Part shown: positions 46,242-63,293 of the stretch, piece by piece
How the letters are laid out: each line of letters begins with the position of its first letter
Position numbering within the stretch: the stretch's first letter is position 1
Assembly: GCF_025370755.1 (NCBI RefSeq)
Contig: NZ_JAMXFC010000003.1
Span: forward strand, 124,001-188,000
Direction: 5' to 3'
DNA: 64,000 nt
Origin: Laspinema sp. D2d
Lineage (GTDB): Bacteria; Cyanobacteriota; Cyanobacteriia; Cyanobacteriales; Laspinemataceae
The notes under the pieces: model-generated
Database searches by the model: none
What the model was told of the DNA's origin: nothing
What the model saw: the letters and a program-made list of their open reading frames with translations, nothing else
Position numbers and translations under genes: made by a program

Positions 46242-48266
46242 TTATTTAACCGTCTCAATACTGCGGGTCTTATTCGTCATCCGGCTCAAGAAAATCTGGA
46301 GCACACTGCGTTTGCCAATTTTAATATTACCTTGCACTGCCATACCAGACTGGAGACTGACTTGCAGTCCATTATCCAACAAAAACTTTTCACTATCTAA
46401 AGTAATCGTTGCCGGGAAGGCATAAAAGCGTCGAGTTTCATCGGGAGGCAACACATCCGAACCAATCGAGGTGAGGACACCCCGAACCGTACCATATTCC
46501 GTAGCTGGGAAGGCTTCAATACTAATCTCAACCGGCACTCCCGCTTGACCATCTTCTTGACTCTTCCGCAGAGCATCTAACACCATCGCAATATCTTGGT
46601 TTTGGATGTAAACCGATGCTTCCAACTCATTATTTGGAACAATTTTTAAGATCGCTTCCGGGGATTGAGCAAGGGTGACATATCCAGGAGAATTGGGTTT
46701 CAAATCAAACACATACCCATCAACCGGAGCCTTGAGTTCTTGATATTGGAGTTCCAGATTAGCCTTAGCTAACTGTCCATCAATTTGGGAAATTCGCTTG
46801 TCATTTTCTAGTTTTAAGCGGCTGAGTTGTCCATTGATATCCGCAATTCGTTTTTGATTGTCGGCGATGCGGGTTAACACATCGCGCTGGGAAATGGCGC
46901 GGGTATTTTGGACCTCTTGACGCGATCGCGACATCGCCACATTCAGCCGTTCTTGTTCACTCAAGAGGCGATCGACCTCTCCAGAACGAGACAGCACTTC
47001 ATTTTGCAGGCGCAAAATTTCTCCTTCCCTTGCGGCAATCTCATTTTCAGCCCGTAAAATTTCTGATTCCCGCGACCCAATTTCATTTTGAAATCGCAAC
47101 AGTTCCTCTTCCCGGCGGGCAATCTCATCTTCACTTCGCAGGACCTCCGCTTCCCGCGAGGAAATTTCATTTTGCTGGGTTAGAATTTGGGCTTCCTGGG
47201 CGGCGAGTTGTTGCTGACGACTCAATAATTCCGCTTCCCGGTTAGAGACTTCCGCTTGAGAGCGCAAAATTTCTTGTTCCTGGCGCTCTTCTTGCAGTTC
47301 AGACAATGCCCCTTCTGCCACCACAGGTTGAATCCGGCCCATAATACTTTGATTGACTGCCAGACCCTGTTTTGCGGTTTCCAGTTGTGCTAGAGCCGTA
47401 GGAATTTGGCGACGGGCGGTTTCGAGTTGTTCCAGGGCCCTGGGTAATTGGCGACGGGCATTTTCTAACCGTTCCCGCGCCTTCGGCAGGTCTTGTTTAG
47501 CATTTTCTAGCCGTTGTTGCGAGGCTACATATTGTTGTCTAGCATTCTGTAGTTGGTCAATCACATTAGGCAATTGCCGCTGCGCAGTATCTAATTGTCT
47601 GCGGGCGGTTTCTAATTGTCCTTGGGAGATGGCAATTTGACCTTGAACGTTAGGAATTTGATTGTTCACCTGGTTGAGTTGTTTTTCCAACTCATCTACT
47701 CGCAAGGAAACTGATTGTTCCCGAGACTGAGATTCATTTCGAGAAGCGATCAGCAATTGCTGTTGATTGAGGTCGAAATCCCCTCCATTGCTGGCGACAG
47801 CGGCCCCATTGAGTTGTGCTTGTAAAAATTGAGTTTCAGAAATTAAATTGGCTCGGAGTTTGGTCAGATTTTCCAGTTCTGAACCCGATTCACCCACGGT
47901 ATTCCCACTGAGTGCCGCTGTAAAAAACTGGTTTTCTCGCATCAAGGCATCTCGTTGTTGCTTGAGAGACTCAACATCCGCTTCTGGACTGGTCGGGTCC
48001 AAGGTTACCAAGAGTTGGCCTTTTTTTACCAACTGGCCGCCTTTAACGTGAATTTCGCGCACCACACCACTGGTAGGGGGTTTCACTTCAACGACAGCAC
48101 CTTGGGGTTCTAATTTACCCGAGGTGGGAACAGATTGATCGATTTGCGCCCAAGCAGCCCAAGCGACGCCCGAAGCGGTCATCCCCATAATTAACCAGAT
48201 GAAGACACTAGACCAAATCGGGGGGCGTTCTAAAATAACAGGTTGGTCGAAAACTGCTGATTTCAT
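46242..48266 (-). CDS. HlyD-family periplasmic adaptor of a type I secretion system
   Basis: This 674-residue protein is longer than the usual 400-480 for HlyD adaptors. A short cytoplasmic start (about 1-17) and one membrane helix (about 18-38) are followed by the first lipoyl half (VEVKPPTSGVVREIHVKGGQ, about 62-80). A very long coiled coil (about 95-530) shows obvious internal repeats such as QLETARRQ and the EI(x)SREAE(I/V)LR series. The second lipoyl half (YVFDLKPNSPGYV) and a beta-barrel domain follow, ending near residue 674. It bridges the inner-membrane ABC exporter and an outer-membrane TolC-like channel not encoded here. It is co-oriented with and 135 bases after the exporter gene. 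Confidence 0.9.
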   Translation of the reverse strand: MKSAVFDQPVILERPPIWSSVFIWLIMGMTASGVAWAAWAQIDQSVPTSGKLEPQGAVVEVKPPTSGVVREIHVKGGQLVKKGQLLVTLDPTSPEADVESLKQQRDALMRENQFFTAALSGNTVGESGSELENLTKLRANLISETQFLQAQLNGAAVASNGGDFDLNQQQLLIASRNESQSREQSVSLRVDELEKQLNQVNNQIPNVQGQIAISQGQLETARRQLDTAQRQLPNVIDQLQNARQQYVASQQRLENAKQDLPKARERLENARRQLPRALEQLETARRQIPTALAQLETAKQGLAVNQSIMGRIQPVVAEGALSELQEERQEQEILRSQAEVSNREAELLSRQQQLAAQEAQILTQQNEISSREAEVLRSEDEIARREEELLRFQNEIGSRESEILRAENEIAAREGEILRLQNEVLSRSGEVDRLLSEQERLNVAMSRSRQEVQNTRAISQRDVLTRIADNQKRIADINGQLSRLKLENDKRISQIDGQLAKANLELQYQELKAPVDGYVFDLKPNSPGYVTLAQSPEAILKIVPNNELEASVYIQNQDIAMVLDALRKSQEDGQAGVPVEISIEAFPATEYGTVRGVLTSIGSDVLPPDETRRFYAFPATITLDSEKFLLDNGLQVSLQSGMAVQGNIKIGKRSVLQIFLSRMTNKTRSIETVK

Positions 48267-48401: not shown

Positions 48402-51400
48402 CTAGACTTGGGATTCCTGTTGTTGATACAGGCAATAGTAGAGACCTTTGAGGGCCATTAATTCATCGTGGGTGCCTTGTTCTACTACCGCGCCTTGGTC
48501 CATCATGAGGATGACATCAGCTTTTTTAACAGTCGTCAGACGGTGGGTGATGAAAAAGACCGTGCGACCCTTAAAGGCTTCGGCTAGGTTTTCACAAACT
48601 AGACGCTCGGAATTGTAGTCCAGGGCGCTGGTGGCTTCATCCAAAATGAGCAGATGGGGATTTTGGAGGACCGTCCGGGCGATCGCAATCCGTTGGCGCT
48701 GACCCCCAGATAACGAGGAACCCCTTTCTCCGACAATGGAGTTATACCCATTAGGCAGGGTCATAATAAACTCATGGGCAACCCCAATTTTGGCCGCTTC
48801 AATAATGTCATTGGTGGCGGCATCGGGATTAGTCAAGGCAATATTGTCCTGAACGGTCCCATTAAACAGGAGGGTATCCTGAAGGACCACGCCGATTTGA
48901 CTCCGCAGGGAATACAATTCCACCTTAGAAACATCATAGCCATCGAGTAAAATCCGACCCCCCGTCGGTTCATAAAGCCTCTGCAACAGCTTCATCAAGG
49001 TACTTTTACCCGAACCACTTTGACCGACAATGCCGACAAATTGCCCCGGTTGAAACTCCAGATTGATGTTCGCCAATTGGAGCGATTTACTCTGGGGAAA
49101 GTGGAAGGAAACATTTTCAAATCGGACGGCCCCCTGTACCGCAGGCATGGGGATATTGCTGCGGTCCTTGTCATCCGCCTCGGGATGGGCTTCTAAGATA
49201 TCCCGCAGACGTTCCACAGACATGGCAGTTTCTTGGAAGGTTTGCCAGACTTGCACGAAGCGCAGCAGGGACCCGGTGACATTGGAGGCGATAATGCGGA
49301 AGGCGATCAACTGACCCAAGGACATTTGGGGAGGGTCACTGAGCACTAAATGAGCACCGACCCAGAGCAGGGCCAGACCGGAGGCTTTATTGAGTAAGGT
49401 ACTGATGGAACTGGCGGTGGTGGAGGTGACGACGGTTTTAAACCCCGCGCTGATATAGCGAGCATAGCGATCGTACCAACTCCACCGGGAGGTAAGCTCG
49501 ATATTTTGGGCCTTCACGGTTTGAATCCCGGAGAGGACCTCGACGAGATAGGACTGGGTATCCGCGTAACGCTCCGCCCGTTTGCGTAACAGCCGTTGGA
49601 CAATGGGCGACACCCCGGCGATTAACAGGGCCATCAGGGGGACCACTGCCAGAGCAACGGCGGTCATTAACAGGCTATAGGAGAGCATGACGGCGATATA
49701 AATCACCGAAAATAAGGCATCGAGAACAACGGTGAGGGCGGTCCCGGTGAGGAATTGGCGAATTTTTTCTAGTTCACTCACCCGTCCGGCGAGTTCACCG
49801 ACACGCCGTTGATCGAAGTAGCCGAGGGGGAGTCGCAGCAGGTGATCAATGACCTGGGACCCGAGACTCAAGTCGATTCGGTTGGTGGTGTCTACGAATA
49901 AATAGGTCCGTAGCCAGGTGAGGGCCCCTTCAAATAGGGCAACTAAAACCATTAGTAAGCCCAGGATATCCAGGGTTTCTAGGCTTCTTTGACCGATGAC
50001 TTTATCGATAATCACCTGGGTGATTAGGGGGTTGGCTAACCCAAATAGTTGAACGAAGAAGGAGGCGAGAAAGACTTGGACTAGGACACTTTTATATTTG
50101 CCGAGTTCGGGGAGGAACCACCAAAAGTTAAAGGTATCTTGTTTGTCTTCTGCGGGAGGGACGAGGAGGAGGACCTGTTCCGTGCCTTCTTTGCCGTCTT
50201 CTGTGGGGGTGACGAGTTGCCACTCCTGGATAAATTTTTGGGGTTTGCGGCGAATGATGCCTTTGGAGGGGATGGCGGCAACGACTTCGCGATCGCTGAC
50301 GCTGAATAAGAGGGCAAAGCTATTTTCCCAGCGAATCATCGCCGGTGCTTTGAGGCGGGAGAGGACTTCTACCGGGACGGTGACCAACTGCCCGTTAAAT
50401 CCCATCATGGCGGCGACGGACCCACAGGATTGCAAGGTCAGTTTGCCGTGGGAGTTATACTGATTTTCCAAGACGCGCTGAACGACGTCACGGCGCACCC
50501 GAATTTGGTATTGTTTCCCCAACATTTGGAAACAGGCCAAAGACCCTTGAATCGGGCCTCTTCCCCGGATGAAGGGATATTTAACTTTGCCCCGTGGGGT
50601 GTTCTCTTCGGCTTCCATCACCGGGGGGCGATCGGGAGCGTAGGGAATGGGGTCCACCACCGTCGGGGTGACAGGGGCCATCGGGGCGATCGCGCTATGG
50701 GAGTCGGCGATCGCCCCCCGATTGTCCTGGGGATTTACCGGGGTTCCGGCCAAATCAAACAAGGGTAAGCCTACGACTCTAGCCCCGTCCGGACAAGGGA
50801 GCTTGCCAATGGTGTTGGCATCCACTATCAAGCGGCTGCCTCGCTCCAATTCACCCAGGGTTCCGCTACTGAGAAACCAGAGGTGATGGCGATCGAGTTC
50901 CGTGAGATTAGCTTTCCCTTTGGGGAGGTTAAGGACAACGGTCTGGGGTTGAAATTGTAGGGTTAAATCTTTGGCATTTGTAGTCGCATCGGCTCGGCGC
51001 TGAAGTTCCCCGGAGAGCATCTCAAATATCTCATTCAGGGCAGCTTGTTGCTCAAAGGCTTCTCGAAATACCTTTTCCGATTTCACCTGCTCTAAGAAGG
51101 TACTGGCGCGGATGCAGACACAGATCACTTCCCGGGAGGAGATCGCACTGTCTACCGCCACCCCTCGCACCAAGCTCCCCCACCCGAGAATTTCTCCCGG
51201 ACCGGCTAACCGCAAACTAACCATACTTTGGCTGCGTTGGTCGTATGCCAATTCCCGCACCTGGCCCTCATAAATCACCGCCACTTGAGTCGGCATTTTA
51301 CCCAACTCAAAAATTGGTTGACCCGTCCGATAGCGCAACAATTCGCAATGGGTAGCCAGATTCTCCAAGGCCCGATCGCCGAGGCGATCAAACGGGGCCG

Positions 51401-51449
51401 TTTTCTTTAAAAATTCTGAAATTTGAGAGAGATCGATCGTTGATGTCAT
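48402..51449 (-). CDS. Type I secretion ABC exporter with cNMP-like and degenerate C39 domains
   Basis: This protein has 1015 residues. Residues about 13-145 form a cyclic-nucleotide-binding-like fold, but the phosphate-cassette Glu and Arg are replaced (GEILGWGSL ... VDSAISS), so cAMP binding is doubtful. A second partial regulatory stretch and linker follow. At about 300-425 lies a C39 peptidase-like domain (GPIQGSLACFQMLGKQY) in which the catalytic Cys, His and Asp positions are Gly, Ser and Ile, so it is a docking domain without peptidase activity, as in HlyB. Six helices (about 455-740) and the ATPase follow: Walker A GQSGSGKSTL near 810, signature LSGGQRQRIAI near 913, Walker B LLILDEATSAL. 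It exports unfolded C-terminal-signal proteins. Confidence 0.92.
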   Translation of the reverse strand: MTSTIDLSQISEFLKKTAPFDRLGDRALENLATHCELLRYRTGQPIFELGKMPTQVAVIYEGQVRELAYDQRSQSMVSLRLAGPGEILGWGSLVRGVAVDSAISSREVICVCIRASTFLEQVKSEKVFREAFEQQAALNEIFEMLSGELQRRADATTNAKDLTLQFQPQTVVLNLPKGKANLTELDRHHLWFLSSGTLGELERGSRLIVDANTIGKLPCPDGARVVGLPLFDLAGTPVNPQDNRGAIADSHSAIAPMAPVTPTVVDPIPYAPDRPPVMEAEENTPRGKVKYPFIRGRGPIQGSLACFQMLGKQYQIRVRRDVVQRVLENQYNSHGKLTLQSCGSVAAMMGFNGQLVTVPVEVLSRLKAPAMIRWENSFALLFSVSDREVVAAIPSKGIIRRKPQKFIQEWQLVTPTEDGKEGTEQVLLLVPPAEDKQDTFNFWWFLPELGKYKSVLVQVFLASFFVQLFGLANPLITQVIIDKVIGQRSLETLDILGLLMVLVALFEGALTWLRTYLFVDTTNRIDLSLGSQVIDHLLRLPLGYFDQRRVGELAGRVSELEKIRQFLTGTALTVVLDALFSVIYIAVMLSYSLLMTAVALAVVPLMALLIAGVSPIVQRLLRKRAERYADTQSYLVEVLSGIQTVKAQNIELTSRWSWYDRYARYISAGFKTVVTSTTASSISTLLNKASGLALLWVGAHLVLSDPPQMSLGQLIAFRIIASNVTGSLLRFVQVWQTFQETAMSVERLRDILEAHPEADDKDRSNIPMPAVQGAVRFENVSFHFPQSKSLQLANINLEFQPGQFVGIVGQSGSGKSTLMKLLQRLYEPTGGRILLDGYDVSKVELYSLRSQIGVVLQDTLLFNGTVQDNIALTNPDAATNDIIEAAKIGVAHEFIMTLPNGYNSIVGERGSSLSGGQRQRIAIARTVLQNPHLLILDEATSALDYNSERLVCENLAEAFKGRTVFFITHRLTTVKKADVILMMDQGAVVEQGTHDELMALKGLYYCLYQQQESQV

Positions 51450-51467: not shown

Positions 51468-52208
51468 CTAACCCGCGATAGACTGCAATGACCCGACTTT
51501 TTGCACCTGTTCTCGCCACCAATTTTCAAACATCTCGTCGATTAATTGCCGACGCATATTGTCATCCAGTTGGGCTGGAATAAATTTTTCTAATCGAATA
51601 ATCACGAACCATATATCCAATTGTCGAGGCGGCCAGAGTTGCCCCGGTTGACTAATCGATAACAGTTTACCAATCAAGGGATGGGGTTGAGAAACCGCAA
51701 CGGGTCCCAGCAATCCCCCAGTTCGGCTTTCTGGGCCTTTTGAGTATTCGGCAGCCGCATCTGCAAAGCTTTGTTCCCCTTCCGAAATCCGAAAATAGAT
51801 TTCTTGGGCTAACCCCGCATCCTGAGTGCGAATTAAGGAGTAAACAACTTTATCCAGGTCGCTTTTGCGGGTCATAAAATAACTTTGAACTTTTGGCCCC
51901 CAGGTTGTTGTCTTGAATTTTTCTATCAATATCTGTCGCACTACAGACTCCTGCATCTGTTCTTCCGTCATGCCTTGGCTTTTCAGCCACGCCTCCCGGA
52001 TTTCGGGGGAGGTGAGCTTTTGCTGCACAGCAAAGTCTTCAAGCGCTCTTAAGCGTTCTTCATCGCTTGCCGTGATCTTCGCCTCGGCTATTCCTTGATC
52101 TAGGACAACACCCCGACAAAATTGCACATCTAACTGATACCGCTTTAATAAGGCGGGTATGTCTTGGGCTTTAATCGTTATGTCGCCAACTTGGAAAAGG
52201 TCACTCAT
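51468..52208 (-). CDS. Parvulin-type peptidyl-prolyl isomerase of the secretion operon
   Basis: I use ATG 52208 (246 residues), with GAGG six bases upstream; the frame opens two codons earlier at TTG. No signal peptide is seen. A helical N-terminal part (about 1-120) resembles SurA/PrsA chaperone regions, and the rotamase domain (about 125-220) contains QSFADAAAEYSKGPESRTGG and LGPVAVSQPHP. In cyanobacteria such genes often sit next to type I exporters. Being probably cytoplasmic, it may keep the substrate unfolded or help engage the exporter. It is 18 bases upstream of the exporter gene, hence first gene of the operon PPIase-exporter-HlyD. Confidence 0.85.
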   Translation of the reverse strand: MSDLFQVGDITIKAQDIPALLKRYQLDVQFCRGVVLDQGIAEAKITASDEERLRALEDFAVQQKLTSPEIREAWLKSQGMTEEQMQESVVRQILIEKFKTTTWGPKVQSYFMTRKSDLDKVVYSLIRTQDAGLAQEIYFRISEGEQSFADAAAEYSKGPESRTGGLLGPVAVSQPHPLIGKLLSISQPGQLWPPRQLDIWFVIIRLEKFIPAQLDDNMRRQLIDEMFENWWREQVQKVGSLQSIAG

Positions 52209-52686
52209 GTTCAACCTCTACAAGACCACAAATATAACCAATCCTAGTTGGCATTGCCAGCACTTTTTGTTTCCTGAATTGAATTTTGGTTTAGGTTTTG
52301 GGCAATTGGGTGATGCTCTCCCCTCATAAACAGCCGGTCAAACTCACTGGGATGGCAGTCTTGGAACGGGTTGATATAACCTTACCCGTTCGGGCAAGAT
52401 GAAGGAAAATACCTAAGATGCAGGATGAACCTCATCCGGAACATTCCGTTCATCGTTTATCCCCTCGTTAAGCGTTGATCCTGTTGTTGTCTGACCCTTC
52501 CCGATTGCCGTTGCTGCCCTGAAAAAAAATTTGACTGCTCTTTACTATCTTAGTAGATAGGCTGTTGAGTTCTCTCTACGACCGGGGACGCTAGTCAACC
52601 GGGATTGGTTTCTTTAAACAGGTTGCCCAACTTACCCCTGTCATACTACTTTCTGCCTCCCTAGGCTATTTTTCCTTGACCTGGAT
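52209..52686 (-). promoter_or_regulatory. Upstream region of the type I secretion operon
   Basis: This 478-base gap between the end of the large fusion gene and the PPIase gene has no credible ORF on either strand. It must contain the operon promoter, but no -10/-35 pair stands out. CTATCT-TAGT-AGATAG (52545-52560) is a small perfect dyad. Confidence 0.35.
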
Positions 52687-55600
52687 TCAATTGGAGTTTT
52701 GAACCAGTTTTTCCAAGAGTGTGCCGATTTTAGCGGAATAAGCACGGGTATCCATACAGGGACCTGTTGTAGGGTGAAAACTCTGCTGTAGTTGCTCCCG
52801 ATACTGTTGCCGTTGTTGCGGGTTCGTCCCTAGGGAAACCGCTAACTCAATGTAAGCCGATTCACTCAGGGCAATCCATTGTTCAAGCTGCAACTCTCGC
52901 AATAGGGCAGACGATCGCCGAGTTTGTGGGGCTTCCCCCTCGCGAACCACTACCGGCAGTCCCACTTCTAACGGATCGATTAGGGATAAATCCCCGGTAT
53001 CCGGGTAAGCGTCTAAATACAGATCTGCTTGCTGCAAACTATCTTTGAGCTCTTCTAAAGAATTTAACTGCTCAATGACTACGAACCGCTTAGGGTCAAT
53101 TCCATATCGCTGCAATACCATTTGGGTGTGATTATCGTAGGGACTGGTGCGATAAAATTTGGCCCCCATTCCTCCAAAGGGATATAACACTAAGATCGAA
53201 TTAGGCACGGCTGCCAAAATTTTGGCCCAGGTTTCTCGAATCTGAGGACCGATTTTGTTGGTACTCGCCCCGGAAATGAAGATCACAGTTTCCTCGGAAG
53301 TCCCCCACCGATGGCGCGTGGGTTGAATTCGCTGTTGTTCCCCGGGTTGGGGTCGCTTAAAACAGAGTCCAGACCCTTCGACTGTCACGACTTGTTCCTG
53401 ATAGTAGTTTTGGAAGCTGGGTCCTGCCATTAAATCCCCGGTAATGTAGTAATCCATCTGGCGCAGTCCCGTGGTACTGGTTACCCAAGCCCCAGTACAT
53501 TGGACCCTCGCCAAGCGGTGGCAAGCTAATAAGGCGATCGCCGTGGTATGACTGCTAATGTCGCTGCCAATGAGCAGAATATCCAACTGATCCCCGCGAA
53601 TTTTCTCCACTTGTTCCCCCAATTTCTGGGGTAGCTGCACTAAGCGATCGGCACAATTTTGGCAGGTTTGTTGCAAGGGGGTCTCTTGAACGGCGATCGC
53701 ATACAACCGCACTTCAAATTTCTGTCGGTCTAAATGCTCAAAAGCAGCCAAAGTGACCACTGTTTCTTTAGCGGCAAAAAAGTTATGTTGCAAAATTCCC
53801 AGGCGAATTTTCTCCCGAGACGGGGGACGAGGGGGACAGTCATAATCCAGGTTCAGCCCTAAATTTTTTAGGGTCAATTCCAGAATTTCTCCTCGTTTTT
53901 GGGCAATTTCCAATCGATTCTCTTCCCAGGCGGATAGGGCTTTAAAATTATGGGATTGGATAAAACATAAGGCAATATACCGCCAGAGGTCTGAATTGGG
54001 ATTTTGGAACAAATGGGAATGGAGATAATTGACCAATCCCTTAAGGGAGTGAAAGTATTGTTCTGGTTCTCCTAGTTCCGAAAATGCACTGGGTGCTGCA
54101 AATAAAAATTGCCAAAAATCCGCGACAAACCATTTGGGAATTGCCGCGCCATTATAAGAGAAGGAAAGTTGATAAGCATCCTGATATAACATCGCCACGA
54201 GAAAGGATTGCATCGCTTTGGGCTGATCCAATCGCGGGCTAATCTCTGACTTTAACTGTTGGACTAACTCTCTTTCACGGTCCGTCAAGGGTTCATTTTT
54301 TATCCCTTTATCCAGGAGTATTTTTGCATCGATACCCACGCCACTCAAATAGCTGAGTTTCAGTTGATCGCCGGTTAAACTTAACCAGCGATCGGCAATT
54401 TGCTCTCGCAGGGGTCGCAGACAGGCGGGTTCATACTTCCTCGGCACTTTGGCATCATGTAAGATCGGTTCACTATTCCAAGGGTCATAAGGAATCAGGG
54501 ATTGAGCGGACAATTGGGGACGCATGAAGCAATTTCCCCGCCGGTTAAGCATGGAGGCGACAAAGGAAAAGGTGCTGTTAGAAATCGCTAGAATATCGCA
54601 GTGACTTAATAAGTAAAAATCTGGATAAAAGTCAGCTTTTGGTAATGCGGCCCCCAGGGATTTAGCGGTAACGGGTTGATATTCGGCAAAATGAGGCAGG
54701 ACTTTTTCCGGTTCGTCACTGGCAATGAATAAAACAGGTTGCTCTAGGGTATCCCAGATTTGGGTTAACCAGGTTTTATACCAGATAAGAGGGGCGATGA
54801 AAAAGTAGGAAAAGCCATAATCTTTGAGTCGGATATGTAATCCGACAATGGTTTTGCCTTGGGAAAGCAGGCGATCGCGCACCGGGTCCAGTTGTTGTTT
54901 GACCTCAATGACAGGTTCAAACCAGCCATAAAACTTGTCTTTATAGGCGGCATAATATTGAGTATGAAACTGAAAATATCCCCAAATGTCAACATTTTTC
55001 AAGGGGTTTTTCCGTTGCAAAATTGGCGAGTCATCGGCGCGGGTACTGACATCTTTGACTTCAGGTAAATTTTTAGACAAGGGGGGGTCTTGATGTCCAA
55101 ATAAATACTGTCCAATCCATTCGGGAGTTTCTATCCGCAGATGATGGGTTTCAGCGTAAAGTTTCAAAAACCCATACTGAAAAAGTTGATTGGCAAAGCG
55201 TCCATTAGTACCCAGGGTAGATAGGGTAATTAAGGGCTTTTTAACATAAAACGCATCTCCCCAAGAAGGATGATAGGGGGTGACGGTAGCAACGCGCTCA
55301 AAGTCAGATTCGGCTAATAATTCATCAATTTTGTCAATTAACTGCGTCCCTTCATACAGTTCTTCGTAATTGACTTCGGTATTAATGGCTTCAATATTTT
55401 GCAGCAGATTTTTGGCCCCTTGGAGGGCCAAAAATTCTGCCCCCTGGATATCTAAGTTCAATAGATTAAAATCTGCCGGATTTAAACCTAATTCTTCCAC
55501 GAGGGTATCCAAGGTTTTAGATTGGACCTGAATTTGATGGGTTTCTCGAATCTCAGGATAATAGTCTTTAACCCGTTTCAAGGGTAAAATAGAGCTGGCT

Positions 55601-57426
55601 GCATCCATTGATGTGACGTGCAAAGTTGCAGTTCCATTAATATTGGAGATGGCACAATTTACGCCAATCAGGTTAGGGACGCCTATTAAATTGGTTTTTA
55701 AGACTTGAAAAACGGCTGGATTGGCTTCAATAAATAAAACCTTATTAATGCCAATTTCCTGATAAATTTTAAGTTCTTCACCTTCATTTGCCCCTACATG
55801 AATGACTCCCCGAGGGGTGATAGAATGCTCCTCTAAGAGTTGGGATAAATCCAACATTTTCGGGTCAGAATTAGAACGCTTTGGAGTAGAGAAAATCTCA
55901 GGTTTGAGAGAATTTTTGGAAATTTTTTGGGGATAAAGACTAGAAATAAACCCTTCTAAATCATCTAAATTTAAAGCATTAGAGAGCAGCGTTGTACAAA
56001 CTTGAGGGAAACTTTTAACGACGGAAAACGTTTGGATTGGTGCGACTAAAGAACGATTGATGGTCGGAAAAGGTCCAGGGACATCATGGAGAACGACTAC
56101 CCCTTGATCTGCTAATAGGGTATGGGCTAGTTCTAAACAGATATTGCGAACGGGACAACCCGGATAAGTGTGGCCTTTGATGGTTACTTCGTCCTGGCGA
56201 TCGCCTGCATCGACAAAAATAATATCAAAATAGCCTGGGCCATATTTCATGGGATATTCACAATACTCTAAAATCTCGGATTCAGTCCAGCAATGTCCCC
56301 CTAAATAGGCTTTTCCTTCTTCACTTTTGACCTCAATTAATCGATAGTCAATGTCAATCCCTTGAGCGGATTTGACGATAGGTGCAAATTTTTCATACCA
56401 CCCCGCATTGTCCTCAACGGACACGACCTGCTGACAGACTAATGATTTGATAAACTGCTCAGTGTTACATCCGGGTCCATACTCTAAAACCCTCAAGGGA
56501 CGGCCTTTTATTTTATACTGATGAGCAATGACATAGGGCAGAATATATTTAAAGGAATGGACAATTTTGGAGGAACCTAGAGTGACTAAACTTTCAGCTA
56601 ATTTTTTGGAATAATTGAGATAAGGCTGACAAAGGGTGTCTAAGTTAATTTGGGAGGTAATGTGGCGAGTTTTGCAGGCGATCGCATTACCGACATGGGA
56701 CAGGGGATGAAAAATATCTGCAAAATTAGTAATTTCTTGCAGTGAAAAAGAGCAAGGACGAGGCAACTCCCGGTCAATCAGGACTAACCATTCATATCCT
56801 AGATCTTTTAGTACCTCTAAACAATCCAGGGTACTTTGAAAATATTTGGGGTTCCATCCCCCTTCCTGACTCTGGCGATCGCCTCCTCCCCCATATTCAA
56901 ATTGCACCAAACTCGGTAATGTTTGGGGGGGAATCTCCCGCAATCCATTAATAATGCCAAATTCGCTGCCTTCTGTATCAACTTTTAAGATAGAAAGCCG
57001 TTCAATTGCCCGATTTTGTAGTAAAGTTTTTAAAGTAAACGCAGGCACATTCAGGCTGGTGGGGGTTCTTCTTTGCCGGAAAGAATCAGATTCTTGCGGT
57101 TTGACTACTCCCCACCAATCCGGATTTAAGGAGTTCAAATTGACATTAAGCTGACCTTGGTATTCCCCCAAATACAGGGTGACTTCCCCATTTTTTTCAG
57201 CGATCGCCGCTTGTTCCAGAGGCACATTCAAACGCTGACAAGTGACCCGCAACTCCTCTACGGGGGCGGGTTCCACTGCCAAAGTGGGAAAACCCGCTTT
57301 GACAAAATCTACAAAATAATAATCCTGGGTTCCCACCCCAATTTCGATCGCCGTCCCCTGACGTTCTGGATCTAAAATTGTGGCAAAGGTCGTCATTAAC
57401 TGTCGTGAACAAGCCTCAAACTTCAT
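52687..57426 (-). CDS. Giant methyltransferase-glycosyltransferase fusion protein
   Basis: This 1579-residue protein has no membrane helix or signal. Domains in order: FkbM methyltransferase 1 (about 1-255; AIEIGVGTQDYYF, SILKVDTEGSEF); a class I SAM methyltransferase (about 285-500; RVLEYGPGCNTEQF, DIIFVDAGDRQDE); FkbM methyltransferase 2 (about 535-730; GVIHVGANEGEELKIYQEIG, NLLNLDIQGAEFLALQGAKN); a GT11-like fucosyltransferase-type domain (about 733-1000; GRFANQLFQYGFLKLYA, VGLHIRLKDY, ISNSTFSFVASML); a helical linker (about 1020-1215); and an OGT/SPINDLY-like GT41 half (about 1220-1579; GASTNKIGPQIRETW, YLDAYPDTGDLSLIDPLEVG). It could build and methylate a short glycan on protein or lipid. 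Its start lies 22 bases from the divergent gene at 57449. Confidence 0.85.
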   Translation of the reverse strand: MKFEACSRQLMTTFATILDPERQGTAIEIGVGTQDYYFVDFVKAGFPTLAVEPAPVEELRVTCQRLNVPLEQAAIAEKNGEVTLYLGEYQGQLNVNLNSLNPDWWGVVKPQESDSFRQRRTPTSLNVPAFTLKTLLQNRAIERLSILKVDTEGSEFGIINGLREIPPQTLPSLVQFEYGGGGDRQSQEGGWNPKYFQSTLDCLEVLKDLGYEWLVLIDRELPRPCSFSLQEITNFADIFHPLSHVGNAIACKTRHITSQINLDTLCQPYLNYSKKLAESLVTLGSSKIVHSFKYILPYVIAHQYKIKGRPLRVLEYGPGCNTEQFIKSLVCQQVVSVEDNAGWYEKFAPIVKSAQGIDIDYRLIEVKSEEGKAYLGGHCWTESEILEYCEYPMKYGPGYFDIIFVDAGDRQDEVTIKGHTYPGCPVRNICLELAHTLLADQGVVVLHDVPGPFPTINRSLVAPIQTFSVVKSFPQVCTTLLSNALNLDDLEGFISSLYPQKISKNSLKPEIFSTPKRSNSDPKMLDLSQLLEEHSITPRGVIHVGANEGEELKIYQEIGINKVLFIEANPAVFQVLKTNLIGVPNLIGVNCAISNINGTATLHVTSMDAASSILPLKRVKDYYPEIRETHQIQVQSKTLDTLVEELGLNPADFNLLNLDIQGAEFLALQGAKNLLQNIEAINTEVNYEELYEGTQLIDKIDELLAESDFERVATVTPYHPSWGDAFYVKKPLITLSTLGTNGRFANQLFQYGFLKLYAETHHLRIETPEWIGQYLFGHQDPPLSKNLPEVKDVSTRADDSPILQRKNPLKNVDIWGYFQFHTQYYAAYKDKFYGWFEPVIEVKQQLDPVRDRLLSQGKTIVGLHIRLKDYGFSYFFIAPLIWYKTWLTQIWDTLEQPVLFIASDEPEKVLPHFAEYQPVTAKSLGAALPKADFYPDFYLLSHCDILAISNSTFSFVASMLNRRGNCFMRPQLSAQSLIPYDPWNSEPILHDAKVPRKYEPACLRPLREQIADRWLSLTGDQLKLSYLSGVGIDAKILLDKGIKNEPLTDRERELVQQLKSEISPRLDQPKAMQSFLVAMLYQDAYQLSFSYNGAAIPKWFVADFWQFLFAAPSAFSELGEPEQYFHSLKGLVNYLHSHLFQNPNSDLWRYIALCFIQSHNFKALSAWEENRLEIAQKRGEILELTLKNLGLNLDYDCPPRPPSREKIRLGILQHNFFAAKETVVTLAAFEHLDRQKFEVRLYAIAVQETPLQQTCQNCADRLVQLPQKLGEQVEKIRGDQLDILLIGSDISSHTTAIALLACHRLARVQCTGAWVTSTTGLRQMDYYITGDLMAGPSFQNYYQEQVVTVEGSGLCFKRPQPGEQQRIQPTRHRWGTSEETVIFISGASTNKIGPQIRETWAKILAAVPNSILVLYPFGGMGAKFYRTSPYDNHTQMVLQRYGIDPKRFVVIEQLNSLEELKDSLQQADLYLDAYPDTGDLSLIDPLEVGLPVVVREGEAPQTRRSSALLRELQLEQWIALSESAYIELAVSLGTNPQQRQQYREQLQQSFHPTTGPCMDTRAYSAKIGTLLEKLVQNSN

Positions 57427-57448: not shown

Positions 57449-58318
57449 ATGCGGATCCTATTTACTTTGGCTCACTTTTTCAACCCGGATGGGATTGGCA
57501 AGTATGGTGCGCAACGCAACGATCCCAACCCGCGCATCCAAGCATTGACCCAAAACCTAACCGCATTGCACCAGTTATTTGGTAACTTTCAGTACGCCAC
57601 GGATTATGCCAAGCGGGTTGCGATAAGCGCCAATCAATCTCTACAGACCGAAATTGAGATTGTGATTTGCACTACCCAAGGCTACCATATTCTCGATCGC
57701 CTTTCTATGCCCTCTCATTTATGGGCCCATCACCCCACGGATGCCGAACCGCTGCTGCTGGGATTTGAATGTCAGGCACTCTTGAAAGAACGCTTAGGCG
57801 GGTATGATTATTACTGTTTTCTGGAAGATGACCTAATTTTGCAGGACCCCTGGTTTTTTATCAAGTTGAATTGGTTTACCCAACAAGCAGGCGATCGCCA
57901 TCTCCTCCAACCCAACCGCTATGAACAATCCACCCACCGAGGCATCGGCAAAACTTACATTGATGGAGAACTACACCCCCAAATTACTGCACCCTATCAA
58001 AATGTTAGAGAATCCCCGCAACTCACTGGCATGATTATGGGGAAATCTGTCACCTTTCAGCGCACTTGCAATCCCCATTCTGGCTGTTATTTCTTAAATG
58101 CCCGCCAGATGGAATACTGGGTGCAGCAACCCTATTTTTTAGACCGTGATACTCGGTTTGTAGGTCCGTTGGAAAGTGCAGCGACCCTGGGGATTATGCG
58201 GACGTTTAAAGTTTATAAACCTGCACCGCCGATGGCTAATTTTTTGGAGGTGCAGCATTTTGGGAGGGTTTGGAGTGAAAAAATTGGGAAGTTAGTGAGG
58301 TGGGAGGGGGAGATTTGA
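57449..58318 (+). CDS. Putative GT-A-like glycosyltransferase (paralogue 1)
   Basis: I start at ATG 57449 (289 residues), because RILFTLAHFFNPDG aligns with KILVTIAHYFNPDG at the start of the paralogue at 60168. An upstream open frame from 57380 overlaps the fusion gene. No named family is recognised with certainty. The segment YYCFLEDDLILQDPWFFIKLNWF, with its acidic EDD triad, resembles the metal site of GT-A glycosyltransferases. NPHSGCYFLNARQMEYW and GPLESAATLGIMRTFKVYKP are shared with the paralogue. No signal or membrane helix. It begins 22 bases from the divergent giant fusion gene and is 58 bases before the methyltransferase fusion. Confidence 0.7.
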   Translation: MRILFTLAHFFNPDGIGKYGAQRNDPNPRIQALTQNLTALHQLFGNFQYATDYAKRVAISANQSLQTEIEIVICTTQGYHILDRLSMPSHLWAHHPTDAEPLLLGFECQALLKERLGGYDYYCFLEDDLILQDPWFFIKLNWFTQQAGDRHLLQPNRYEQSTHRGIGKTYIDGELHPQITAPYQNVRESPQLTGMIMGKSVTFQRTCNPHSGCYFLNARQMEYWVQQPYFLDRDTRFVGPLESAATLGIMRTFKVYKPAPPMANFLEVQHFGRVWSEKIGKLVRWEGEI

Positions 58319-58376: not shown

Positions 58377-60080
58377 ATGACTGATTTTGATTATTATGAC
58401 CGGGTGAATCCGGATTTATTGAAGGTTTTACCGGCAGATGCGGCAATGATTATTGAGGTGGGCTGTGGTGCCGGGGCGATGGGGATGCAATATAAGCGGA
58501 TTAATCCTCATGGGCGTTATATTGGAGTAGAAATTAATCAAGAAGCAGCCGCAGTGGCGGCGCAACGGTTGGATGAAGTAATTGTTGCGAATGTTGAAGA
58601 TTTGGAGGATAAGCAGCTACAGTTTGAGCCTGGGTCTGTTGATTGTTTGGTGTATGGGGATGTGTTGGAACATTTAGTTGATCCGTGGCGGGTTCTCCAG
58701 CATCAGGTGAAGTGGTTGAAGGATGAGGGTCAAGTGTTGGCTTGTATTCCTAATATTCAACATTGGACGGCGATTGTTAATTTGTTGCGAGGGAGTTGGG
58801 AGTATCAGAACCAAGGGTTGCTCGATCGCACTCATTTACGATTTTTTACGTTAGATGAGGTGAAAAAGTTATTCCTTCAGGCAGGGTTACAAAGTTATGA
58901 AATTCAAACTCGCGGACGGAAACCCCCGGCTTTTCAACAGTTCCAGCAGTTAATGGCTCCAGTAGTTCAAGGGTTAGGAATTGACCCGAAAACGTTTGAA
59001 ACTCAAACGGGGGCGATTCAATATGTGGTAAGAGGAATTAAGTCGGAAATACCGCCCAGACGGCTGTTAATTCAAACGATTATTATGGCCCCAACAGGGT
59101 GCGATCGCCCTCGGGTATTAGAACCCGATCGCCTCAGTGCGACAATTCCAGGGGTGCGAACCATTTCGGAGGTGCGATCGGCCAACTTGAATGCTGCACT
59201 CCCTCAAGAAGAAAAGGTTTTTATCTGGCAACGGACCATTATGGACTATCCCGAAGATGTGGTCAAACTCAAACAACTGTTGCAATTAGGCTATTTAATT
59301 ATTGCCGAAATTGATGATGACCCCCTGCGCCGTCCGGAATATGAAAAAAATCTGTTTCTGAGTTATCGCGGTTGTCACGGCGTGCAAACTTCTACGGAAC
59401 CCTTGGCGGATTTTTTACGCCAATATAATCCCAATGTAGCGGTCTTTAAAAATCAATTGGGCTATTTACCACCGAAACGAACCTACCCTGATGACCCGAC
59501 TTGTACTATCTTTTTCGGGGCGCTCAATCGCGAGGCAGATTGGCAACCGATTATGACAGAGTTAAATCGGGTTCTGCAAAAATACAAGAAACAGGTGCAA
59601 GTGAAAGTGCTGCACGATCGCCAGTTTTTTGAGCAGTTACAGGTCAAGAATAAAGAGTTTTTACCCTTTTCTCCTTATGAAACTTATCAGGAGGTATTGC
59701 ATAGTTGTGATGTCGCTCTGCTACCCCTGACCCCAACTCGGATTAATAGTATGAAGTCGGATTTAAAGTTTCTCGAATGTGCCGGTCATGGGGTGGCCGT
59801 GATCGCGAGTCCAACAGTCTATGAAAATACGATTATTGAGGGAGAAACTGGGTTAATTTATCGCTCAAAAAAGGAATTTGGTCAAAAGTTGGAGTCTTTA
59901 ATCCAGGATCTGGATTTGCGCAGGGGTTTAGGGCAGAATGCTTATCAGTGGGTGGCTAAAAATCGCCTGCTATCTCAACATTACCGGGAACGTCACCAGT
60001 GGTATTTGTCCCTGCGCGATCGCCTCCCTGAGTTAAATCACGAATTGCGCGATCGCCTACCGGAGTTGTTTGAAGATTAA
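58377..60080 (+). CDS. Methyltransferase - glycosyltransferase fusion protein
   Basis: This 567-residue protein has GGGAGG eight bases before its ATG. Residues about 1-205 are a class I SAM methyltransferase: [20 protein letters not shown] as motif [13 protein letters not shown] typical of small-molecule methyltransferases. Residues about 225-535 look like the donor half of a GT-B glycosyltransferase ([52 protein letters not shown]). The C-terminus carries a duplicated RDRLPEL heptad. It probably methylates and glycosylates the same acceptor. It lies between the two paralogous genes at 57449 and 60168, all on the plus strand with short gaps. Confidence 0.8.
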
Positions 60081-60167: not shown

Positions 60168-61034
60168 ATGAAAATACTCGTCACGATCGCGCATTATTTC
60201 AATCCCGATGGCGGAGGGAAACATGGTTCTCTCAGCAAAGACCCGCGATCGCGGATTGTGGCATTGAGTCAGTCTTTAACCCACTTAGCCGCAATTTTAG
60301 GGAAATATCAAGGGGTACTAGATATCGCTAAATCTCTAGCAGTCCCAGCAAATCAGGGTCAGTCGCTGGATATTGATATCGTGATTTGTACCACTCAAAA
60401 CCGTCATGTTTTAGACGATTTGCCGGTTCCTCATCAGATTTACAAGCATCACGCCACCCAAGCGGAACCCTTGATGCTGGGGTTTGAATGTCACGCCCTG
60501 TTGCGGGATAGTTTGGGTCGCTATGATTATTATTGCTATATGGAAGATGACCTGATCCTCCATGACCCTTGGTTTTTTATTAAATTAAACTGGTTTTCCT
60601 CCCAAGCGGGAGATTTGAATCTGTTGCAACCCAATCGCTATGAAATTTCGCCTCCGGGTCGAGTGGGTAAGGTCTATATTGATGGAGATTTATTACCTAG
60701 AGCAACGGCCCAGTTTCAGAAGGTCGAGGACCGACCGGAATTGAAGGGAAATATCATGGAGCAACCTGTACTGTTCCGGCGATCGCTCAATCCCCATTCC
60801 GGTTGCTTTTTTCTGAATGCTAAACAGATGGCCCATTGGGCGTCACAACCTTATTTCTTAGACCGCGATACCAGTTTTATCGGCCCCTTGGAAAGCGTTG
60901 CCACTCTAGGCATTATGCGAACCTTTAGAATCTATAAACCCGATCCGACTTATGCAGGATTCCTAGAAATTCAGCACTTTGGGACTGCATTTCTCAACCT
61001 GATTGGTCGAGGCATCAATATCTCCCCGGGATAA
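60168..61034 (+). CDS. Putative GT-A-like glycosyltransferase (paralogue 2)
   Basis: This 288-residue paralogue of the protein at 57449 aligns end to end with it and is closely similar, so a tandem duplication around the fusion gene is likely. Shared blocks include VIVICTTQ-type IDIVICTTQNRHVLDDL, YYCYMEDDLILHDPWFFIKL with the acidic EDD triad, NPHSGCFFLNAKQMAHW and IGPLESVATLGIMRTFRIYK. Differences cluster in residues 180-200 and at the C-terminus (ends INISPG against WEGEI). No signal peptide. It is the last plus-strand gene before the convergent RTX gene, with a C-rich spacer and the RTX terminator between. Confidence 0.7.
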   Translation: MKILVTIAHYFNPDGGGKHGSLSKDPRSRIVALSQSLTHLAAILGKYQGVLDIAKSLAVPANQGQSLDIDIVICTTQNRHVLDDLPVPHQIYKHHATQAEPLMLGFECHALLRDSLGRYDYYCYMEDDLILHDPWFFIKLNWFSSQAGDLNLLQPNRYEISPPGRVGKVYIDGDLLPRATAQFQKVEDRPELKGNIMEQPVLFRRSLNPHSGCFFLNAKQMAHWASQPYFLDRDTSFIGPLESVATLGIMRTFRIYKPDPTYAGFLEIQHFGTAFLNLIGRGINISPG

Positions 61035-61175: not shown

Positions 61176-63293
61176 TTAGAACAGGAATATGTCATTCCGG
61201 GTAATCGCACCACTGCTGACGACCGCAATAGTTACGATTTCATCGGGATTGTTCCGATCACTCGGGGCCGCACCATTTTTATCCCAGAGCAAGAATCCGC
61301 CTTGATCTTGGGCGTCGAAGATGATCGCCGAAGTGGTACCAGTGCCACTGATCAAGTTCTCGAAGCTACCCGTGTAGGTGGTGGTTTTATTGGTAGAGAA
61401 GAAGTCGATGTTGGTCCGGAGTCCAGCGATCGCCTCAGAGTCTAAAGCATAGCCTGTGAGGTTGAGGTAGATTTTATCTCGACCACTCTCGAAGCTGGTG
61501 ATAGTATCACCCGGTGTTGGAGTTCCGGCGCTAACGTTGCCGCTATCATCACTGGTGACCCCATCACGGGCATCTGCGATACTGCCGAATAGGAAGGCAT
61601 CGGCTGCACCACCGGTTCCAATCAGGCTGTCTGCACCCCAGAACCCTTCCAGAGTATCCAAGCCGGGAGTATCTGCCCGGAGGGTATCTGCTTCGTCACT
61701 ACCCGTGAGGAAGTCATTACCAGTACCGCCCATCAGGGTATCATCAGCGCTACCAGCAACCAGCACGTTATCGCCGGAGACTGCCATGAGCAGATTTCCA
61801 CCACCACCATCCTTGGCGTAGAGGGAGTCATTGCCTTCACCACCGATCAGGGTATTGTTTGCGCCACCCTCTCCCAGGATCAGGGTATCGCTACCTTTGT
61901 CGCCAGATAGATAAGAATCTATTCCCGATGAAGCGATGGAATCGTTATCTTGACCACCGTACAGACTTACGGCTTCGGCTGTACCGACCAGAGAGTCGTT
62001 TCCTTGGTTACCAAAGCCAACGCTAGAGGCCCCACCGAGGGATAACAGGTCCAGATTGTTCCCGGCGATCGTGTCGTTGTCTTCGATGTTGCCACCAATC
62101 AAGGTATCGCGAATGCCGGTACTCAGGAGAGTATCGTTGCCTTTATCTCCATACAGGAGGTTAGTGCCGCCACCCAGGGTTGTGTCACCCGTGACCAGGG
62201 AGATACCGGAAACCACGGTGTCATTATCTTGTCCACCATATAAGGTGCTGCGAGTGAACCCGTAGGTTTCTAAATAGTCTACGCCAGTATTACCGAACAC
62301 TAGGACTTGGCTACCTCGGTTGAAGAGGGAATCATCCCCCTCAGCCCCGATCATGGTCTGACGTCCGCGATCGCCCCCGGAGGAGTAGATGTAATCGCTC
62401 CCGGTTCCGCCGTTTAACCAGTTGTTACGAGGGTATCCTGCGAGTGCGCGTTGCGCCCCTTCTACAGTGTTGACTCCATCTTCCTCTAACCCGAGCTCTA
62501 GGGGAGCATCTTTACTAAGCATGAACAGGGAGTCGTTTCCTTCGCCCCCGAATAGGCTGTCGCGATCGCCGATCCCAAAGATGACGTCGTTGCCTTTGTC
62601 ACCGCTGAGATAGTTGCGCCCAGGGTTTCTGGGAACGGCAACGCCGTCTTCTACAACGACGCCCACTCCTAAGCCTGCTGTTGCACCTGCGCCCGATCCA
62701 CCGCCAAATAAGAACGGAGGAACGAAGCCAATGCCACCAATGGTATCCGGAACGAAGGCCGCACCTCCACCCCCGGAACCTGAGCCACTACCGGCTATTT
62801 CAATAACCTGGATGGTATCGTCACCGATACCACCGTAGAGGGTATCCGCACCTAAGCCGGAGCCACTGATGAAGTCATCTCCGCCGTTTCCAAAGGCGAG
62901 GTTGCCCCCAAGACCGTTACCAAAGTTGAAAATATCATCGCTGTCTTCTACCCGGTTTTCGGATTGGTTGTTGGTGCCACCGTAAACCGTGTCGCGACCT
63001 AAGCTGCCTCGGGCTTCATAGCGATCTTGCCCTAAGTCACCAAAGAAGACGCTTCCGCCCCCTTTGCTCACCAAAAAGTCATCGTCTTGACCCCCATAAA
63101 GGGTGTCTCCTGATGTGCTTGAGGTCAGGGAATCATTTTCTGTATTCCCAAAAATTAAACTCCCACCGACGGTATCGGTGGTAATAAAATCACTTCCCGT
63201 TAGGCCCACAACCGTATCTGCGCCTAGGCCAAACGAAAATAAATCTAGGGTATCGTTCGGATTTACCGGGTTTGTATCGAGTATTCTAACCAT
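61176..63293 (-). CDS. RTX-type calcium-binding repeat protein, type I secretion substrate
   Basis: This 705-residue protein is acidic, rich in Gly, Asp, Asn and Ser, without cysteine-rich parts, and has no N-terminal signal peptide. From about residue 25 to 560 it is built from more than twenty nonapeptide-like repeats of the GGxGxDxL type and close variants (LYGGQDDDFL, GDKGNDVI, GGEGNDSL, GNTENDSL), which fold as calcium-binding beta rolls. A Gly/Ser loop near 165-200 and a non-repeat C-terminal domain (about 590-705) end in AITRNDIFLF, like C-terminal type I signals. The likely exporter is the operon at 46.2-52.2 kb. Resemblance to oscillin, the Ca-binding surface glycoprotein of gliding cyanobacteria, is by type, not by proven homology. 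AGGAG lies about twelve bases before the ATG. Confidence 0.88.
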   Translation of the reverse strand: MVRILDTNPVNPNDTLDLFSFGLGADTVVGLTGSDFITTDTVGGSLIFGNTENDSLTSSTSGDTLYGGQDDDFLVSKGGGSVFFGDLGQDRYEARGSLGRDTVYGGTNNQSENRVEDSDDIFNFGNGLGGNLAFGNGGDDFISGSGLGADTLYGGIGDDTIQVIEIAGSGSGSGGGGAAFVPDTIGGIGFVPPFLFGGGSGAGATAGLGVGVVVEDGVAVPRNPGRNYLSGDKGNDVIFGIGDRDSLFGGEGNDSLFMLSKDAPLELGLEEDGVNTVEGAQRALAGYPRNNWLNGGTGSDYIYSSGGDRGRQTMIGAEGDDSLFNRGSQVLVFGNTGVDYLETYGFTRSTLYGGQDNDTVVSGISLVTGDTTLGGGTNLLYGDKGNDTLLSTGIRDTLIGGNIEDNDTIAGNNLDLLSLGGASSVGFGNQGNDSLVGTAEAVSLYGGQDNDSIASSGIDSYLSGDKGSDTLILGEGGANNTLIGGEGNDSLYAKDGGGGNLLMAVSGDNVLVAGSADDTLMGGTGNDFLTGSDEADTLRADTPGLDTLEGFWGADSLIGTGGAADAFLFGSIADARDGVTSDDSGNVSAGTPTPGDTITSFESGRDKIYLNLTGYALDSEAIAGLRTNIDFFSTNKTTTYTGSFENLISGTGTTSAIIFDAQDQGGFLLWDKNGAAPSDRNNPDEIVTIAVVSSGAITRNDIFLF

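Follow-up and report, generated by a model that had tools for sequence, protein, structure and literature searches.

Polyfunctional chains that combine glycosyltransferase (GT) and methyltransferase domains are already known. WsaE of the Geobacillus stearothermophilus S-layer glycan joins a single methyltransferase domain to two GT domains (PMC2943079), and A064R of the chlorovirus PBCV-1 carries two GTs together with a methyltransferase (PMC9614988). Oscillin and SwmA, RTX proteins of motile cyanobacteria, have been described as glycosylated; oscillin of Phormidium uncinatum, a gliding filamentous cyanobacterium, is a calcium-binding RTX glycoprotein of 646 residues (PMC3034196). In the literature that we found, no glycosylating enzyme of these cyanobacterial RTX surface proteins has been identified.

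Here we discuss a locus in a 64,000-nucleotide stretch of DNA (the window) from a filamentous cyanobacterium near Laspinema/Oscillatoria; its nearest named genomes are Oscillatoria sp. HE19RPO, Laspinema olomoucense, Laspinema palackyanum, and Phormidium pseudopriestleyi. The locus brings together in one place a candidate enzyme, a candidate acceptor, and a candidate exporter. The enzyme is a fusion with five catalytic modules, and no description of a fusion of this kind was found in the literature covered, subscription journals lying mostly outside that coverage. The features are as follows (positions in the window):

52687..57426, minus strand: five-catalytic-module protein, 1579 aa (full-length orthologs in eight genomes)
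56662..57426, minus strand: FkbM-type methyltransferase domain 1, residues 1-255 (PF05050, E=5.9e-15; motifs AIEIGVG at 26-32 and VDTEGSE at 149-155)
55936..56643, minus strand: probable class I methyltransferase, residues 262-497 (motifs LEYGPGCN at 314-321 and DIIFVDA at 401-407; sub-threshold PF13578)
55849..55935, minus strand: variable linker, residues 498-526 (dN/dS 0.45, pLDDT below 50)
55243..55848, minus strand: FkbM methyltransferase domain 2, residues 527-728 (PF05050, E=5e-18; motifs VIHVGANEG and NLDIQGAE)
54448..55242, minus strand: GT11-like domain of predicted fucosyltransferase fold, residues 729-993 (PF01531, E=1.9e-5; HIRLKDYG at 864-871, SNST at 949-952)
53827..54429, minus strand: conserved all-helical domain (HEL), residues 1000-1200 (22-protein alignment A1)
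52702..53820, minus strand: GT41 catalytic domain, residues 1203-1575 (PF13844, E=1e-22; Lys1391 kept; donor loop YPDTGDLSLIDP at 1474-1485 altered)
51468..52214, minus strand: PpiC-type peptidyl-prolyl isomerase, first gene of the secretion set (PF00639; conserved neighbour)
48402..51449, minus strand: HlyB-type secretion ATPase with cNMP-binding and C39-like domains (domain profiles; conserved neighbour)
46242..48266, minus strand: HlyD-type membrane-fusion protein (domain profiles; conserved neighbour)
57449..58318, plus strand: divergent EDD-family gene, unclassified, possibly a glycosyltransferase (invariant EDD; kept here in sister genera)
58377..60080, plus strand: methyltransferase and GT-B glycosyltransferase fusion (PF08242, PF13524; conserved neighbour)
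60168..61034, plus strand: second EDD-family gene (60% identical to the gene at 57449)
61176..63293, minus strand: RTX protein, 705 aa, proposed acceptor and export substrate (PF00353, E=6e-29; orthologs at the same locus)

Within the fusion, Pfam places the FkbM profile (PF05050) at about residues 38-212 and 543-709, with scores of 56 bits (domain 1) and 66 bits (domain 2) against a curated cut-off of 22.7, and TIGR01444 matches as well. In the AlphaFold model of residues 1-1000, which used 17 sequences, the first, third, and fourth domains of the chain have mostly good confidence and the second does not; FkbM domain 1 is modelled with high confidence except for the loops 87-122 and 180-191, and FkbM domain 2 is well modelled. 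Class I methyltransferases are also returned when this model is searched with Foldseek. Free-standing relatives of FkbM domain 1, ~280-300 aa in length, occur in other genera. FkbM domain 2 is 60-67% identical to its counterparts in other giant fusions, and the sequence similarity of the FkbM2-GT11 pair extends to alphaproteobacterial plasmids. Both FkbM domains are predicted to be SAM-dependent O-methyltransferases of a glycan. An Okeania protein of 1481 aa (locus L018, 10001-14446) resembles the fusion in its first four slots, which hold FkbM, a different FkbM, FkbM, and GT11, and then has a GT2-type domain.

The second domain of the chain was initially annotated as a class I methyltransferase. 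Its motifs (LEYGPGCN, VEDN, and DIIFVDA) have the look of this class, but the sole Pfam match to residues 260-530 is Methyltransf_24 (PF13578) at E=0.057-0.19, under the cut-off, and a search of the PDB with the domain gave no match. Comparison with methyltransferases using hhalign gave weak matches, and the pLDDT is below 50 in the AlphaFold model, which was built on a shallow alignment. Among 391 genomes of the order, the domain is found in its own genus plus one marginal match, and the sole match among 386 sampled genomes of the phylum was the own genome. The domain is under purifying selection (dN/dS 0.12), and it is probably a class I methyltransferase. Thus, four of the five enzyme domains originally counted (FkbM twice, GT11, and GT41) are recovered by profile, while the second is matched by none above cut-off. 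Likewise, structure prediction, proposed as a check for five separate folds, yielded models of domains 1, 3, and 4, but left domain 2 unmodelled and gave a poor C-terminal model.

The GT11 profile (PF01531) matches with 24.5 bits against a cut-off of 23.9 in a search with this segment by itself, and it is missing from the whole-chain Pfam list at E<=0.001. Foldseek on this part returns FUT8 (E=7e-7), NodZ (E=5e-6, TMt 0.57), and Arabidopsis FUT1, and these fucosyltransferases are the top non-methyltransferase fold matches of the residues 1-1000 model. As modelled, residues 729-993 have a fucosyltransferase fold. The initial annotation had regarded the motifs of the chain as intact, a statement that has to be revised: the HxRRxD donor motif of GT11 is absent, with HIRLKD in its place and the second Arg replaced, and in the donor loop of GT41 the typical Tyr/Phe and Thr are missing; the essential Lys is still in place. 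All six aligned orthologs have HIRLKDYG, versus HLRRGDY (or HIHLRRGDY-like) in other fusions. The stretch HIRLKDYGFSYFFI is common to the GT11 domains of the Laspinema group (genus g1) and of the free-standing GT11-HEL-GT41 proteins of genus g5, and the GT11 tree places g1 and g5 in one clade (support 97/93). The shared stretch and the joint clade argue for an inherited specialisation of the GT11 motif rather than recent decay.

The region once described as a "helical linker" is a conserved domain of ~200 residues (HEL) that precedes this type of GT41 in about 14 genera. The absence of a TPR superhelix had been recognised correctly, as Pfam finds no TPR profile in the chain. In the 22-protein alignment, HEL lies immediately before GT41, and the two form a conserved module of ~575 residues. 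This HEL-GT41 module is present in about 14 genera of the order, mostly within chains of about 1000-2700 residues that usually open with GT2, GT4, pyruvyl-transferase, or methyltransferase domains, and many of these chains have a second copy of the first half of HEL behind GT41. A second giant, of 1811 aa, is encoded just outside the window (locus L009, 8048-13483) and is built as GT2-GT4-GT4-HEL-GT41, after which the first half of HEL comes a second time. Searches of Pfam and the PDB gave no match to HEL. Identity with an HMW1C-like N-glycosyltransferase is unsupported by profile, Pfam, and fold search, the last drawing mainly on the C-lobe, and HMW1C_N (PF18071) gave no match in the 22 HEL-GT41 family members or in the own genome. 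The family was also not found in a scan of viral contigs. A helical-GT41 protein family without TPRs thus comes to light.

The gene order around the fusion is kept within the Laspinema-group genus. The PpiC, HlyB, and HlyD genes lie downstream, and the EDD gene is divergently upstream after a gap of ~22 bases; this arrangement is present in all examined members of the genus and in two genomes of the sister genus g5. The slot between the EDD gene and PpiC-HlyB-HlyD holds a GT11-HEL-GT41 protein of about 865 aa in g5 (with unrelated open frames before PpiC), GT4-GT2-HEL-GT41 in two genomes of g6, and GT4-GT2-HEL in g2. The g2 protein (locus L049, 252-2258) ends in HEL without GT41, which suggests that HEL can work independently of GT41. 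At four further loci (L031, L032, L034, and L040), a HEL-GT41 protein is near an RTX gene, and at two of these (L032 and L040) it is also near PpiC and an EDD-family gene. RTX orthologs are found within the cluster in several genera. Moreover, HEL-GT41 is at most about 10 kb from a PpiC gene in five of ~14 genera, and HEL alone is so placed in one more. At an assumed 1% per genome, the chance of finding six of 14 genera with this adjacency is 3e-9, a rough guide since the genera are non-independent; hence an accident is very unlikely. Other lineages have these modules too, in glycosyltransferase proteins whose genes have no such secretion set close by. The EDD family, to which the genes at 57449 and 60168 belong, has no match in Pfam, NCBIfam, or the PDB; it is present in 15 of 44 sampled genera, often clustered with secretion genes.

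Judged by its gene order, the locus behaves as a glycosylation slot with modules exchanged between lineages. This raises the tentative possibility, to which we would not yet give even odds, that a fixed secretion locus of filamentous cyanobacteria has an exchangeable polyfunctional slot, in which lineages swap whole GT and methyltransferase modules before a shared, protein-targeting HEL-GT41 module and thereby change the glycan on the exported RTX protein. Such natural recombination of glycan-building modules could be used for learning how acceptors are chosen.

The RTX secretion locus, a link that the initial annotation had left unmentioned, is also the best clue to the substrate of the fusion. 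GT41 enzymes of known function act on proteins in the cytosol, and type I secretion exports proteins straight from the cytosol. A cytosolic enzyme whose gene lies between those for the exporter and an RTX protein is therefore well placed to decorate this protein before export. Since the fusion gene adjoins RTX export genes in all sampled members of the genus, its product probably builds the sugar coat of this calcium-binding surface protein before export. With a probability of roughly 0.5, the fusion is a cytosolic polyfunctional enzyme that equips the co-encoded RTX surface protein, which is secreted from this locus, with a methylated deoxysugar glycan. The module activities, donors, acceptor, and reaction order in this scheme are all ones that we infer. 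Attachment or extension of a sugar on the RTX polypeptide would be the task of the HEL-GT41 module. GT11 would contribute a deoxysugar, taken probably from a GDP-linked donor, and hydroxyls of the glycan would be O-methylated by the FkbM and class I methyltransferase modules. The decorated protein would then exit via PpiC-HlyB-HlyD and end up on the filament as a calcium-dependent layer or fibril of glycoprotein.

The RTX protein at 61176..63293 has no Cys, 19% Gly, a pI of 4.05, and 14 NxS/T sites. Its role as acceptor is a guess from proximity, because the genome encodes many other RTX proteins. Genes for sugar supply include rfbA, rfbC, and rfbD, found with GT2/GT4 enzymes at 28 to 42 kb of the window, a gene of the rhamnosyl O-methyltransferase family further along the cluster, and a Gmd gene elsewhere in the genome; together these suggest deoxysugars and O-methylation. 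This Gmd (GDP-mannose 4,6-dehydratase) gene (locus L066 on contig C3, 1486-3546) carries an in-frame insert of ~320 residues that looks like an intein (junctions FNHE/CVIDQTPV and GWIHN/SPRRGE). Just outside the window (locus L009, 5177-7633), a TPR-containing SPINDLY-like GT41 gene adjoins the RTX gene and stays close to it in several genera.

Against modification of the RTX protein, the polysaccharide genes (GTs and rfb) in and near the window allow a polysaccharide target. The fusion might instead build or cap a polysaccharide, either lipid-linked or exported (slime, capsule, or O-antigen), and its adjacency to the RTX secretion genes would then reflect shared regulation or chance clustering within a large surface-glycan island. 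The GT2/GT4 and rfbA/C/D genes mentioned above are consistent with this, as is the similar polyfunctional enzyme WsaE, which works on a lipid-linked glycan (PMC2943079). In addition, FkbM2-GT11 tandems elsewhere belong to giant GT proteins whose loci lack the secretion set. However, the gene tracks PpiC-HlyB-HlyD and the EDD gene across genera, and the GT41 enzymes of known function (OGT, SPINDLY, and HMW1C) act on proteins. We regard a polysaccharide target as unlikely, at somewhat better than one chance in four.

Glycosylation of the RTX protein by the fusion, the reading that we prefer, assigns sugar transfer to the GT41 module. PF13844 matches this module with 80.6 bits against a cut-off of 25, and SPINDLY is the best match in a profile search of the region (E=4e-42). 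The AlphaFold model of residues 996-1579, built on a shallow alignment of nine sequences, has a pLDDT of 52 with parts of the GT41 C-lobe better, and Foldseek of the C-terminal part returns OGT/SPINDLY structures (E=5e-17), mainly from this better-modelled C-lobe. The OGT-like C-terminus proposed from the sequence at the outset is thus upheld by both profile and fold match. K1391, the equivalent of the essential SPINDLY K665, is kept in every member of the genus; of the 22 aligned relatives, 20 also have it. By contrast, the donor loop reads PDTGDLS here versus mostly PYxGATS in the family, such that D1476 and L1480 occupy the positions of SPINDLY Y744 and T748, and the NFYKI stretch is STNKI or similar in the genus. 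The Asp is confined to the genus; the Leu is also found in g5.

In SPINDLY, the Y744A and T748A variants are strongly impaired (PMC9715652), and the altered loop could mean a changed donor or a weakened enzyme. In the extreme case, the GT41 module would be an acceptor-binding scaffold without sugar transfer, leaving the methyltransferases and GT11 as the only active parts. The changes in the loop and in the NFYKI stretch, the SPINDLY variants, and a dN/dS of 0.22, the highest among the domains, would all fit a scaffold. Nevertheless, retention of K1391, purifying selection on the domain, and the variability of the Thr position in some other family members speak against it, and we consider a catalytically silent GT41 improbable, at about one chance in seven.

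The fusion itself is real and kept by selection. The gene is a single open frame of 1579 codons (57426..52687), and its start codon is backed by similar beginnings in relatives (MKFEACSRQLM here, MRVEECCQALL in Okeania). One continuous frame of this length had been reported before, without its strand, which is minus. All eight searched Laspinema-group genomes carry the full-length 1579-aa chain, 88-90% identical (the window's own 100%) and without internal stops. Pairwise dN/dS values among six orthologs are 0.14, 0.12, 0.09, 0.13, 0.19, and 0.22 in domain order, and the linker (501-528, 0.45) is the sole region outside 0.09-0.22. A merging of separate genes through sequencing error, frameshift, or misassembly is rejected with near certainty, because the same stop-free frame recurs in eight genomes, one of which is in three contigs, and dN/dS is low throughout the chain. 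The chain is soluble, in agreement with the initial annotation, having no membrane-like stretch and a maximum 19-residue hydropathy of 1.46.

How does the fusion compare with the systems introduced above? Like WsaE, it is soluble and polyfunctional, with a methyltransferase at the N-terminus and two glycosyltransferase domains in the same chain, and WsaE makes a 2-O-methyl cap (PMC2943079). The likeness is one of architecture: WsaE has three domains versus five, its glycosyltransferases are rhamnosyltransferases, and its glycan is lipid-linked. PBCV-1 A064R and A111/114R also carry several GT domains per chain (A064R a methyltransferase as well) and build part of a protein-linked glycan (PMC9614988), but they have three domains from other GT families and act on a viral N-glycan. 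With SPINDLY and bacterial OGT, the best profile and fold matches, the fusion shares a C-terminal GT-B catalytic domain with an essential Lys; unlike them, it has no TPR superhelix, a distinct helical domain of ~200 residues, an altered donor loop, and four other modules fused to it. HMW1C-like enzymes are soluble, modify proteins, and resemble the fusion in combining GT41 without TPRs and an all-alpha N-terminal domain (PMC10507012), whereas their profile match is weaker (E about 1e-9, C-lobe only) and the helical domain has no HMW1C_N match. The RTX neighbour, with 705 residues versus 646, is likened to oscillin by description, not by sequence. By analogy, the architecture of the fusion fits the WsaE type of polyfunctional chain, and it differs from both WsaE and A064R in its domain families, its number of modules, and its position beside a type I secretion set.
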